From positions 186,001 to 250,000 of the forward strand of contig JAJDTU010000009.1 of assembly GCA_022826965.1 (NCBI GenBank): a DNA stretch of 64,000 nucleotides, given 5' to 3'. A model generated the notes under the pieces. That model made no database searches and was not told where the DNA came from. It saw only the letters and a program-made list of their open reading frames with translations. The position numbers and the translations under genes were made by a program. Source of the stretch: Dehalococcoidia bacterium (GTDB lineage: Bacteria > Chloroflexota > Dehalococcoidia > Bin125). Below are positions 25,790 through 47,073 of this stretch, in pieces. How positions within the stretch are numbered: position 1 is the first letter of the stretch; every line of letters begins with the position of its first letter.

Positions 25790-25948
25790 GTTCGGCTTCC
25801 CTTCAGCACAACGTCTTCCTGCGTCTTCCTAGTCAGCATATATGTTCTGTCTGCGACCGGGGGCCTGAGCGGGCGGCAGCTGTAAGCGAGGACACTCAGT
25901 GGATGATCAGGCGGGTCGGGGGCGTGCGAGGGGGTTGAATCTTCGTAA

Positions 25949-25960
25949 GAACACATGTAC
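25949..25960 (+). promoter_or_regulatory. LexA/Cheo-box-like site upstream of terminase
   Basis: GAACACATGTAC differs at one of the eight fixed positions from the Gram-positive SOS box GAAC-N4-GTTC. A weaker relative, GCATATATGTTC, lies at 25836-25847 nearer the divergent gene. Whether this organism's LexA uses such a box is unknown. Confidence 0.35.
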
Positions 25961-25969
25961 TGTCAGGGG

Positions 25970-25990
25970 TCATTCCCGAGGCGGGAATGA
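25970..25990. promoter_or_regulatory. Perfect inverted repeat between divergent terminase-like genes
   Basis: TCATTCCCG-AGG-CGGGAATGA: 9 bp arms around 3 bases, about 30 bp before the terminase start. It is suited to binding a dimeric repressor. It differs from families A, B and C and is seen once in the window. Confidence 0.5.
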
Positions 25991-26021
25991 GGTTGTGGGT
26001 CGTTGTGTGGAGGAGGATTCG

Positions 26022-27425
26022 ATGAGGTATCCGGTGGAGGCGGAACGGATGATGGCGAGGCTGGCGGGGCTACACGCGGCGCGCCCGTACGAGCCGACGG
26101 CGCGTCAGCGGAGTCTGCTGGAGGCGTTGTCAGAGGGACCGGCGGAGGGGGTGTCGCTGGTGGGCTACGGGGGCGCGATGGGGGGAGGGAAGACGCGGCT
26201 GCTGGCCGAGCTGGCGCTGGACGCGGCGCTGTTGCACCCGGGGAACAACGTCCTGGTCGGCCGGCAGCACTACACGGACCTGCACACGACGACGCTGGCG
26301 GAGTTTTTCCGAGCGTGTCCGGAGCGGTTCATCCGCGACCGCAGCGAATCGCCGAGCCAGCGAGTGGAAGTGAGCGTGGCCCCGGGCATTCCGAGTTCGA
26401 CGATTCACTTTCGGCACCTGTCGTCGTGGACGGGCCTGGGATCGCAGGAGTACGGTTCGGTGTTCATCGACGAGGCCGGCGAAGTCGCCGAAGAGGCAGC
26501 GCGGATGCTGCTGACTCGACTGCGCCATCCCGCCCAGACGCGGCGCTGGTTTGTGGCGGCGTCGAATCCGTGGCCGGGCTGGTTTGAGCGCTGGTTTGCG
26601 AGGCGGGAGTTGGACGAGGAGGCGCTGGCGCTGGCGGACGGCCGCGTGATCTTCATTCCGGCGCGGATCGAGGACAATCCACACCTGCCCGAGCGATACG
26701 CCGATCAGCAGCGGGCGCTGCATCCCGGCGACTGGGTGGAGCGCTTCATCGAGGGACGCTTCGACGCGTTCGCGGGGCAGGTGTACGGCCGGTTCGATGC
26801 GAAGGAGCACACCTGGAACGGACGGCTGCCGGCGTTCTCGCGGTACGTCGGCGGGCTCGATTTCGGCGGGCCCTCCGAGGACGCGCACTTCACGGCCGGC
26901 GTTGTGGCGGGGATCACCGACTCGCGCGCACCGTGCGGCCCGGACGTGCTGATCCGGCTGGACGAGTTCGAGGAGCGCGGGCCGGACGTGATCCAGCGGC
27001 TGGAGGCGTGGCAGCGGCGCTGCGTCAGCCAGTTCGGGGGCAAGCTCGGCCGGATTCGTTGGTGCGCCGACCGCTCGCAGAGCGCCTGGATTGATCATCA
27101 ACGGCGTCAGGGGATCGACGTGGTTCCGAGCCGCGGGGGCGAGGGGTCGGTCAACTGGGGGATCTCGCTGGTGCAGGAGCGGTTGGCGGCGGATCCGCCG
27201 CGCTCGTACTACGTGCCGCAGTTGGTGAGGTTTCCGGAGCGGATGCGGGAGTATCGCTGGAATCTGCGGGAGGGCGGGGAGCCGAAGCCGGTGAAACGCC
27301 GGGACGACCTGCTGGACGCCGATCGCTACCTGCATGAACTGGCGCAGGAGAAGCCGGAGGCGCTTCCACGGATCGAGGTCGTGCATGCGCCTCGGGGTCG
27401 GCTGGCTCACTGGCGGGGTCGGTGA
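26022..27425 (+). CDS. Phage-type terminase large subunit (orphan)
   Basis: 467 residues from the ATG with GGAGGAGG 5 bases upstream. The ATPase has Walker A GYGGAMGGGKTR (50-59) and Walker B SVFIDEAGE (146-154). The RNase-H-like nuclease has Asp279 in GGLDFG, Asp349 in WCADRS and a third acidic site in RRDDLLDADRYLHEL near 431-433. All catalytic sites of a TerL motor are therefore kept. TerL packages concatemeric DNA into proheads. No portal, capsid, protease or tail gene lies in the window, so it is either a remnant or a domesticated packaging enzyme such as a gene-transfer-agent component. A divergent TerS-like gene and an inverted repeat lie upstream. Confidence 0.85.
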   Translation: MRYPVEAERMMARLAGLHAARPYEPTARQRSLLEALSEGPAEGVSLVGYGGAMGGGKTRLLAELALDAALLHPGNNVLVGRQHYTDLHTTTLAEFFRACPERFIRDRSESPSQRVEVSVAPGIPSSTIHFRHLSSWTGLGSQEYGSVFIDEAGEVAEEAARMLLTRLRHPAQTRRWFVAASNPWPGWFERWFARRELDEEALALADGRVIFIPARIEDNPHLPERYADQQRALHPGDWVERFIEGRFDAFAGQVYGRFDAKEHTWNGRLPAFSRYVGGLDFGGPSEDAHFTAGVVAGITDSRAPCGPDVLIRLDEFEERGPDVIQRLEAWQRRCVSQFGGKLGRIRWCADRSQSAWIDHQRRQGIDVVPSRGGEGSVNWGISLVQERLAADPPRSYYVPQLVRFPERMREYRWNLREGGEPKPVKRRDDLLDADRYLHELAQEKPEALPRIEVVHAPRGRLAHWRGR

Positions 27426-27473: not shown

Positions 27474-27522
27474 GCCCCCCTCTGCCTTCGGCCTCTCCCC
27501 CCGCTCCGCGGGGGGAGAGGGG
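27474..27522 (+). repeat. Family A double-hairpin repeat, copy 4
   Basis: GCC-TTC-GGC then CTCCCCCCGC-TCC-GCGGGGGGAG, directly after the terminase gene. Confidence 0.9.
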
Positions 27523-27591
27523 AAGTGGGGGTGCGGTGAGGGGGTGCGGCCTTCATGCTTGAGCGTGTTCAGACTGGCCGGATTGCACGTT

Positions 27592-27757
27592 GCCCCGTGC
27601 TTGACACGGGGCCCAGACCTCGGAGGTTGAATGCAGCGACGCCGTTGTCTCTGGCTCAAATGTGCTGGGCGCGTGCTCGCGGGCACGCATCGAATCGAGA
27701 CCTACGTCGTTGCAGGTACGAACCTGGCAGCTCTGGGCCCCGTGTCAAGCACGGGGC
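27592..27757. repeat. ~165 bp element with long imperfect inverted arms ending in family C palindromes
   Basis: The ends are CCCCGTG-CTTGA-CACGGGG (27593-27611) and its reverse complement (27738-27756). Homology between the arms continues inward for about 55 bases through CCCAGA, AGGTT, GCAGCGACG and TCTC blocks. This leaves a centre of about 40 bases. It contains no open frame and could fold as one long hairpin. Confidence 0.75.
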
Positions 27758-27802
27758 ATCGGACGGGGGTACGGGGCGTCGGAGGGGGTCCGGCGTTGGA
27801 GG

Positions 27803-27861
27803 GCCCTCACCCCCCGCCTACGCGGGGGCAGGCTCTATCCCTCTCCCTCGGGGAGAGGGGA
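27803..27861 (+). repeat. Family B repeat interrupted by a GC palindrome
   Basis: It begins GGCCCTCACC and ends CTCTCCCTCGGGGAGAGGGG like other family B copies. Between them lie about 24 extra bases containing CCCCCGC-CTAC-GCGGGGG followed by CAGGCT. The uninterrupted copies have only TAA-like bases at this point. Confidence 0.8.
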
Positions 27862-27912
27862 TCGGAGGGAGGGGGGATTGCGTTGGGGGGAGGATGGTGT
27901 CGGTAAGGGAGA

Positions 27913-27961
27913 GCCCCCCTCTGCCTTCGGCATCTCCCCCCGCTGCGCGGGGGGAGAGGGG
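27913..27961 (+). repeat. Family A double-hairpin repeat, copy 5
   Basis: GCC-TTC-GGC then CTCCCCCCGC-TGC-GCGGGGGGAG; a typical copy. Confidence 0.9.
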
Positions 27962-28115
27962 ACCGCAGGGAGGAGGAAGCGGGGCCCTGCCTTCGCGGGG
28001 CCGACTTTGGTTGGGCTGGGCGCGGGGTGTGCTCAGGGGTGAGGGGATCGGGCGGGGGGTGGGCGGTGATACGATGCGGAATAGGGCACAGAGAGCTGAG
28101 TCGAGAGGTCGGACG

Positions 28116-45158: not shown

Positions 45159-45181
45159 CGGCGAGCATCATCTCTCGGCGA

Positions 45182-45284
45182 GCCCCCCTCTGCCTTCGGC
45201 ATCTCCCCCCGCTGCGCGGGGGGAGATGGGAGACGTGGTGCGGGGATGGCGCGGCGTGCTCTGGGCCCCGCGTCGAGCGCGGGG
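45182..45284 (+). repeat. Family A repeat copy 10 and a family C palindrome
   Basis: Bases 45182-45230 are a typical family A copy (GCC-TTC-GGC; loop TGC). Bases 45266-45284 are CCCCGCG-TCGAG-CGCGGGG, which matches the palindrome at 27738 with both sides of two stem pairs changed together. The gap 45159-45407 holds no gene. Confidence 0.88.
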
Positions 45285-45407: not shown

Positions 45408-46043
45408 ATGACCACGGCGACCAAGGACTCGGTGGTGACCCCGGAGCGGTTCAAGTCGGGAATGACCTGGAACCAGTACCTGGCATTCATCAACTCGGAA
45501 GAGAACTTCCAGCGCCTGACCCCGGGCGGCGACCCCCGCGGCGACGCGAACGTGGAGCGGTTCATCCGCAACATGAGCGCCTGGCAGGTTTCGGAAGCAG
45601 GGCGCGAGGCGCTGCAGTCGCTGCCGCGGCTGAAGATGCTGGTGCTGGGCGAGGACTGGTGCCCGGACGTGTATCGCGGACTGCCGGTGCTGGCGGAGAT
45701 CGCGGCGACGGCGGGCTGGGAGATCCGGATCTTCGCGCGCGACGAGAACAACGACATCATGTCCGAGTTCCTGAAGGACGGACAGCACGAGTCGATTCCG
45801 ACGGCGGTGATGTACACGCTGGACCATGAGTACGTTGGTCACTGGATCGAGCGTCCGGCGGTGGCGAACGAGCATATGGCCAACATGCAGAAGCTGTTCA
45901 GCCGCAAAGAGGGCGAGTCGGAAGACGAGATGCGGGCTCGGATTCGCCAGGGCTACCGAGACCTTCAGTCGTCGGACGAGTGGGCGTCGTGGCGCGACGC
46001 GACGGTCGACGAGATTGTGGAGTTGGTTCGGAGCAACACGTAG
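45408..46043 (+). CDS. Thioredoxin-fold protein
   Basis: 211 residues; the ATG at 45408 has AAGGAG 8 bases upstream. A thioredoxin-like centre begins near residue 73: LKMLVLGEDWCPDVYRG, with Cys85 as the only cysteine of the CxxC position (CPDV), and HESIPTAVMYTLDHEYVGHW supplies the cis-proline strand. The second active-site cysteine is missing, so it is more likely a thiol peroxidase-like or binding protein than a disulfide reductase. The N-terminal 60 residues are unassigned. Confidence 0.75.
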   Translation: MTTATKDSVVTPERFKSGMTWNQYLAFINSEENFQRLTPGGDPRGDANVERFIRNMSAWQVSEAGREALQSLPRLKMLVLGEDWCPDVYRGLPVLAEIAATAGWEIRIFARDENNDIMSEFLKDGQHESIPTAVMYTLDHEYVGHWIERPAVANEHMANMQKLFSRKEGESEDEMRARIRQGYRDLQSSDEWASWRDATVDEIVELVRSNT

Positions 46044-46228: not shown

Positions 46229-46301
46229 GCCCCCCTCTGCCCCCGCATCAAGTGCGGGGCAGGCTTCGGCATCTCCCCCCGCTTACGCGGGGGGAGAGGG
46301 G
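46229..46301 (+). repeat. Family A repeat copy 11 with a nested family C palindrome
   Basis: The outer parts match family A (CCCCCCTCTG and GGCATCTCCCCCCGC with loop TTAC). The first hairpin is split by about 24 bases carrying CCCCGCA-TCAAG-TGCGGGG (46241-46259) followed by CAGGCT. Confidence 0.85.
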
Positions 46302-46341: not shown

Positions 46342-47007
46342 TCAACGTCTGGTTGAGGACCCGAAGGGGCTGTCGGGTGGGTCATTGGGGTCGGGTTGGT
46401 CTTCGATGACTGGTGCGCCCTGCTCGATGGCTCGCATGGCTCGCCAGGTGATGAACCAGCGCTGGAGGGCGGTGAGGTTGGTGAGGACGGCGAGGATCCA
46501 GAGGATCGGGAGGATCTGCGCGGAGAGCAGGCCAATCGAGAGGATGAGGACGCGCTCGAGGCGGGTACCGAGTCCGGTGCGGATGCTGATGCCGAACTCG
46601 CCGGCCTTGGAGCGGGTGTAGCTGACCATCATGCTGCCGAAGAGGGAGACGCCGATTAAGACGATGGCGGTGCGGTCGAAGCGCTCGGCGGCGCTGTACC
46701 AGATGAGGAGTCCGAAGAGCAGGGCGAAGTCGGCGAGCCGGTCGGAGACGGCGTCGAAGACGGCGCCCCAGTCGGAGGCGCGGTCGGTGGCTCGGGCGAC
46801 GGCGCCGTCGAGCAGGTCGAAGAAGGCGGCGGCGAGCATGGTGATGCCGGCCTGCCAGAACATGCCGTGGGCGGCGAATGCGCCGGCGCCGCCCATGCCG
46901 AGCAGGCCGATCACGGTCAGGGCGTTTGGGGTGAGTCCGGTGCGGGCGACGGCGCGTCCGAGGCGCTCGGAGATGTCGGTTGATATCGAGTGGGGGAGAA
47001 GTGACAC
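46342..47007 (-). CDS. CDP-alcohol phosphatidyltransferase, probable phosphatidylinositol-phosphate synthase
   Basis: 221 residues, multi-pass membrane enzyme. The CDP-OH-P motif is complete: DLLDGAVAR then GAVFDAVSDR, giving Asp64, Asp67, Gly68, Arg72, Gly81, Asp85 and Asp89. Around it, GLTPNALTVIG, VSYTRSKAGEFG and TRLERVLIL line up with mycobacterial PgsA1 (PIP synthase), which joins CDP-diacylglycerol and inositol-3-phosphate. The same family also makes phosphatidylglycerophosphate; Ino1 and PimA-like genes in the same run favour the inositol reaction. It is the last gene of the minus-strand lipid cluster, with repeats beyond its stop. Confidence 0.85.
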   Translation of the reverse strand: MSLLPHSISTDISERLGRAVARTGLTPNALTVIGLLGMGGAGAFAAHGMFWQAGITMLAAAFFDLLDGAVARATDRASDWGAVFDAVSDRLADFALLFGLLIWYSAAERFDRTAIVLIGVSLFGSMMVSYTRSKAGEFGISIRTGLGTRLERVLILSIGLLSAQILPILWILAVLTNLTALQRWFITWRAMRAIEQGAPVIEDQPDPNDPPDSPFGSSTRR

Positions 47008-47073
47008 GTGGCTCTCGATCGGAGTCCGGCCGCCTTGGAGCCACTGTACACAGGGGACGGATCGGAAATCGGC

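Follow-up and report, generated by a model that had tools for sequence, protein, structure and literature searches.

The small dispersed repeats of Nostoc, described by Elhai and colleagues in 2008, are reportedly 21-27 nt long and are said to show compensatory changes in their hairpins, to lie nested within other repeats and within one another, and to be thought recently mobile. They have reportedly been described as confined to one cyanobacterial group.

CGTC-tagged REPs (Di Nocera et al. 2013, PMC3733652) are short hairpins located between genes in several phyla, for which a dedicated transposase is not known. Members of this superfamily share a terminal CGTC (or TGTC or CCTC) tag, an 8-9 bp stem that starts with A-T pairs and a loop of 4-5 nt, and the CGTC-1 dimers of H. 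neapolitanus, together with the GTAG elements of T. roseum and A. variabilis, have been found inside palindromes (PMC3733652). REP transposases cleave at CT, and one of them also at CA (PMC8266576), while palindromic elements are also found in genes, as in the case of REPs within tnpAREP genes (PMC6006769).

The hairpin described here interrupts a palindrome in a window of 64,000 nucleotides (G000:C12:186001-250000; 65.6% G+C) from a 3.0-Mb bacterial assembly of 14 contigs; other than a tRNA, no known RNA family was found in this window. The element belongs with the known kinds of small hairpin, and what is unusual about it is its exact identity across phyla and its insertion into palindromes, confirmed by empty sites. 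It resembles CGTC REPs in being a short hairpin with a 5-nt loop (TCAAG, within the 4-5 nt criterion) that occurs as single intergenic units in several phyla. However, the edge of its copies is GCAGGC/GCCTGC, with a GCCTG/CAGGC tag in place of CGTC, TGTC, CCTC or GTAG, and no A-T pairs stand next to the tag at the base of the stem (CCCGCA/TGCGGG). Unlike those REPs, it is a fixed monomer of 23-24 nt for which empty orthologous sites have been demonstrated and of which one sequence recurs in many phyla. Its size, compensatory hairpin changes and nesting recall the Nostoc repeats (no sequence comparison was made), but it spans several phyla rather than one group of cyanobacteria. With the REPs and REPINs mobilized by RAYT (TnpA-REP) it shares a hairpin with an unpaired tag, target steps that match CT/CA cutting and the lack of a target duplication, whereas it has no GTAG tag, and no RAYT or Y1 enzyme was found in the window genome or in 14 of 33 other carriers. 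A short, fixed adjoining target without duplication is likewise a trait of IS200/IS605-type single-strand transposition; the criteria for a MITE (terminal inverted repeats plus a target-site duplication) are not met, as no duplication is seen at the empty sites. No printed match to the core of the element was found in the literature searched.

The insertion itself, its size and boundaries and the preference for palindromic targets were all observed directly, as were several independent insertions and the occurrence of the identical sequence across several phyla. These observations are likely to mean that the insert represents one copy of a mobile hairpin, 23-24 nt long, REP-like and non-autonomous, that enters other palindromes; the single-strand route, dependent on an enzyme acting in trans, is inferred.

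The inserted hairpin and its relatives

An earlier note on this DNA had claimed that one copy of palindrome family A is split by a CAGGCT-edged hairpin and that a family B copy near 27803 carries a similar insertion, and both descriptions were borne out. The A palindrome (46230-46301, plus strand; ends CCCCCCTCTGCC ... TTCGGCATCTCCCCCCGCTTACGCGGGGGGAGAGGGG) lies in a spacer flanked by a thioredoxin-like gene (45408-46043, plus strand) and a gene on the minus strand (46382-47044). Its first hairpin is split, between CTCTGCC and TTCGGCATCTCC, by the 23-nt insert CCCGCATCAAGTGCGGGGCAGGC (46242-46264, plus strand), of which identical copies occur elsewhere. The B palindrome (CCCTCACCC...CCCTCTCCCTCGGGGAGAGGGG; 27804-27860, plus strand) is split by CCCGCCTACGCGGGGGCAGGCTC (27813-27835, plus strand), a related hairpin with a short loop and the CAGGCT edge in common, which recurs in B copies of three other genomes (G004, G009 and G013). 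An uninterrupted A copy at 45181-45229 (plus strand), a potential target, is present in G004 too.

The same note had placed palindromes at 27593, 27738 and 45266 in one family with the insert. These do exist and their stems are compensated (CCCCGTG/CACGGGG versus CCCCGCG/CGCGGGG), but their edges (TCTGGG ... CATCGGA) are unlike those of the CAGGCT element; these ‘C1’ palindromes (the 27738 type) are not copies of the element but hosts for it, a role seen in relatives. The uninterrupted C1 palindrome GGGCCCCGTGTCAAGCACGGGGCATCGGA (27735-27763, plus strand) has the same sequence as the landing site TC^AAG in a congener, G014; another lies in reverse orientation at 27593-27611 (minus strand), and a third, with the compensated stem CCCCGCG/CGCGGGG, at 45266-45284 (plus strand), where the surrounding stretch is missing from the G004 ortholog. 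A terminase-large-subunit-like gene (25899-27425; PF04466, PF03237) adjoins the palindrome cluster at 27474-28010.

The element unit reads CCCGCA-TCAAG-TGCGGG-GCAGGC(T): a stem (CCCGCA/TGCGGG), a 5-nt loop (TCAAG) and a tag (GCAGGC), with a predicted fold of ((((((.....)))))) for the CCCGCATCAAGTGCGGGGCAGGC hairpin. Read against uninterrupted hosts, the inserts are 23 or 24 nt long, the T being the extra base of the longer form. A search of the 3.0-Mb window genome with CCCCGCATCAAGTGCGGGGCAGGCT, allowing up to 3 mismatches, returned 13 copies, compared with 0 for a reversed-pattern control. Variants with the stems CCCGTA/TACGGG and CCCGGA/TCCGGG keep the TCAAG loop and the tag; the covariation count is biased, since the CCCGCA stem was part of the pattern used to fetch most loci. 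The Dehalococcoidia genome C20_metabat.bin.39 (G045) harbors 96 copies, about one-third of which are of a compensated subtype, CCCGTATCAAGTACGGGG, and two subfamilies seem to have been amplified there side by side. At G000:C13:249562 (L008), an A copy contains an insert with a different stem, CCCGGGTCGGAGCCCGGGGCAGGC, at the identical position, such that different hairpins share both site and tag.

Empty sites in a related genome

The nearest relative compared (G004) displays 98% protein identity at the locus of the 46242-46264 element. Its orthologous spacer reads GGCGGATGCCCCCCTCTGCC|TTCGGCATCTCCCCCCGCTTGCGCGGGG, and the window is nearly identical except for 23 extra bases at the bar; the site at 46241/46265 is thus empty in G004, which has an A copy in the same place without the hairpin. 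At C14:418956, a second clean gap of 23 bp is found in G004, inside CATACCCGCGCTTGCC|GCGGGTATC, with flanks that are approximately 90% identical; a further copy of the element 80 bp downstream, common to G000 and G004, is the older one. At C4:569027, alignment of the left flank extends to CTCTGCC, and G004 then continues as an uninterrupted A copy; judged from the alignment alone, this is probably a third empty site. A positional counterpart exists for the B palindrome as well: the G004 B copy bounded by the same pair of A copies has the sequence CACCC|TAGCCCTCTCCC and does not contain the CCCGCCTACGCGGGGGCAGGCTC insert.

At most other loci of the window genome, the host palindrome itself is missing from the G004 ortholog, and a direct empty site is therefore available at only two or three loci. 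The spacers of other congeners at the 46242-46264 locus have diverged and could not be aligned, and the comparison left out C13:249562 and one flank of C14:327553.

The earlier note had suggested that a tiny mobile element favors other palindromes, and had recommended that relatives be searched for empty sites (the absence of which would have refuted the idea) and for target duplications. With two clean empty sites in G004, at 46241/46265 and C14:418956, that refutation does not apply, and the empty sites, together with the fixed positions that copies occupy in six or more types of palindrome, support the proposal, although the mobilizing activity remains unidentified. The suggested duplications did not materialize, as neither of these two sites has one. 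The shared CAGGCT edge was correctly recognized only in part: CAGGC is carried by the element, and the final T is either derived from the target or added.

Palindromic hosts and insertion rules

All 13 CAGGCT-edged copies in the window genome (up to 3 mismatches) are located inside palindromes: seven at position 1 of family A, two at A position 2, two in family B and two in CGTC-like hosts. The host junctions are CTCTGCC^TTCGGCA (A position 1), GGCATC^TCCCCC (A position 2) and AGCCC^TCTCCC (B). Uninterrupted A cores number 84 in the window genome and 66 in G004. Automatic assignment placed at least 52 of the 58 distinct copies read in G014 in A, C1 or CGTC-like hosts (nine at A position 1, 20 at A position 2, two CGTC-like and 21 in the C1 loop, GGGCCCCGTGTC^AAGCACGGGGCATCGGA), and several of the six unassigned copies resemble degraded A or C1 copies. 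Triple nests occur at L320 and L321, and one A copy (L274) harbors two inserts.

In a more general test that scored palindromes straddling the insertion point, the shift was modest (5.6 versus 4.9 paired bases, P = 2e-4). The hairpin at A position 1 is short, and several of the sites fall within an arm and not within a loop, which explains the small difference; the assignment of host families is the more informative measure.

Insertion takes place after a C, mostly at C^T and less often at C^A or C^G. Across 123 non-redundant sites, C occupies position -1 in 120 and T occupies position +1 in 114, counts to which the search pattern (CCCC...GGCT) itself contributes. The orientation of the element at the insertion site is fixed and no target bases are duplicated. 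In three Deltaproteobacterial loci (L172, L197 and L227), the element lies in CGTC-type repeats from which part of the host stem is apparently missing, an arrangement that looks more like replacement than insertion.

Identical junctions in many composites, and the near identity of the 21 C1-with-C composites of G014, might instead be explained if a few old composites (A-with-C, B-with-E and C1-with-C) had spread as units, with few true insertions, and if the empty sites were exact deletions. Some composites probably did spread in this manner, including the G014 set and the IS66- and IS1380-borne copies of another genome (G047), so that copy number overstates the number of insertion events. As a general account, however, this explanation is improbable and was already disfavored by the two clean empty orthologous sites and the likely third. 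Furthermore, repeated exact loss of the same 23 nt would itself require a specific enzyme, and no fewer than six unrelated hosts contain the same insert, among them the Bradyrhizobium repeats CCGGTATCCAC^TTTTCGGGATCATGC and CGAACCGGTATCCAC^TTTCGCTCGAAAACGC. Unchanged inserts also reside in A copies whose first hairpins differ from one another in a compensatory manner (GCCGCTTCGCGGC, GTCACTCCGTGAC and GTCTCTACGAGAC), which, combined with the use of other hosts in other lineages, indicates independent insertions.

Distribution across bacteria

In a 257-Gb collection, the 25-mer CCCCGCATCAAGTGCGGGGCAGGCT is matched exactly at over 117 positions, where fewer than 0.01 matches would be expected by chance (an estimate from base composition). 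Among the matches listed are Dehalococcoidia and other Chloroflexota, Bradyrhizobium, Rhodoplanes and Rhodospirillales, as well as Deltaproteobacteria, Nitrospirota, Nitrospinota, Bacillota, Fibrobacteria, Gracilibacteria and Aliiglaciecola; several of the smaller carrier groups rest on metagenome bins. A search of 33 other carriers (up to 2 mismatches) yielded between 1 and 96 copies in each, and none with the reversed control. Copy numbers are high in G045 (96), G014 (61), G011 (26) and G008 (23), and the sister genomes G002, G006 and G012 contain no copies. Across phyla, the Alpha-, Gamma- and Deltaproteobacteria included, the copies sit inside each lineage's own palindromes. The recurrence of the same sequence across phyla implies horizontal movement. 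Carriage by phages was considered and rejected, as one viral contig among 2.9 million contains the element.

Most carriers are metagenome-assembled genomes, and an artefact of assembly or library preparation, or contamination of bins, must accordingly be considered. It can be set aside with near certainty: the element is also present in isolates (Bradyrhizobium erythrophlei GAS478, B. lablabi and Aliiglaciecola sp. CAU 1673) and in a complete chromosome (OX638345.1), its copies lie within lineage-specific repeats (those of B. erythrophlei being specific to the genus), and one orthologous copy is common to two species.

The complete chromosome (G047) also contains copies within transposase genes. 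At L327:367-1815, an intact IS1380 transposase of 482 amino acids harbors an in-frame 24-nt copy, read as PASSAGQA within IRD-PASSAGQA-LKYGVG, and the PASSAGQA residues are missing from the two IS1380 proteins aligned to it. The same IS1380 insertion is carried by at least eight loci of this chromosome, and the transposon thus seems to have been amplified together with its insert. At L341:486-1866, copies with a compensated stem (CCCGTA/TACGGG) are found inside a multi-copy IS66 transposase region. The in-frame copy is reminiscent of Rickettsia RPEs, palindromic elements that are inserted in frame in genes, and of the REPs in tnpAREP genes, but the element is mainly intergenic and much shorter than RPEs.

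Candidate enzymes and routes of movement

If the insert is a mobile hairpin, it would travel in folded, single-stranded form, and an enzyme acting in trans would perform the cutting and joining at C^N. Of the models for such an activity, a Y1/HUH-type endonuclease matches best; cleavage by REP transposases at CT and CA fits the element's target steps, C^T and C^A. The preference for palindromes might then arise because hairpins or loops are exposed when DNA becomes single-stranded, for example on the lagging-strand template. These steps are inferences, and GC skew in G047 and G055 was too weak to read the strand bias expected of lagging-strand transposition.

Searches for Y1_Tnp (PF01797) detected no match in the window genome or in 13 of its 14 congeners, including G014 with its 61 copies; within the genus, the transposase negatives rest on this profile only. 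The sole match among the 15 genomes of the genus lies at G008:C5:81494-81673. The same profile was undetected in 14 of 33 other carriers, including the complete chromosome OX638345.1. Reverse transcriptase (PF00078) exceeded the cut-off in only two of 17 carriers searched, with no match in G014 or G005. By these counts, neither enzyme tracks the presence of the element. The many carriers without a detectable PF01797 match leave room for another enzyme, for an enzyme that comes and goes, or for no dedicated enzyme. It is conceivable, though doubtful, that a 23-24-nt hairpin shared across phyla moves without a dedicated transposase from any known class, and that palindromes, including those of its own kin, act as ‘landing pads’ for a general host activity on single-stranded hairpins or for an unrecognized class of enzyme.

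An enzyme-free process in which template switching between hairpins during replication places a copy of one hairpin in an arm or the loop of a second palindrome would suit the many carriers in which no dedicated transposase was found, the palindromic nature of both partners and the Deltaproteobacterial sites (L172 and L197) that resemble partial replacement within CGTC-type repeats. It is nonetheless unlikely: random switching should yield variable ends, but the unit has a constant length of 23-24 nt and constant ends (an unpaired tag among them), enters at a fixed target step in one orientation, and is identical across phyla.

An RNA route, in which a folded transcript acquires the hairpin before being copied back, has been suggested for the Nostoc repeats, whose reported size and nesting the element resembles, and the target sequences would form hairpins in RNA. 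The scarcity of PF00078 matches noted above, and their absence from G014 and G005, render this explanation very unlikely.

Significance

How CGTC-type REPs spread without a known transposase has been an open question since their first description. The hairpin described here, interpreted as a mobile element, offers material for direct tests: its unit and junction are fixed, and it includes insertions that are young and species-specific. Should movement, and not constraint, underlie its identity across phyla, few known DNA mobile elements would be as small or as widely distributed. Within these genomes, nested insertion partly explains why intergenic palindromes are composite in structure.
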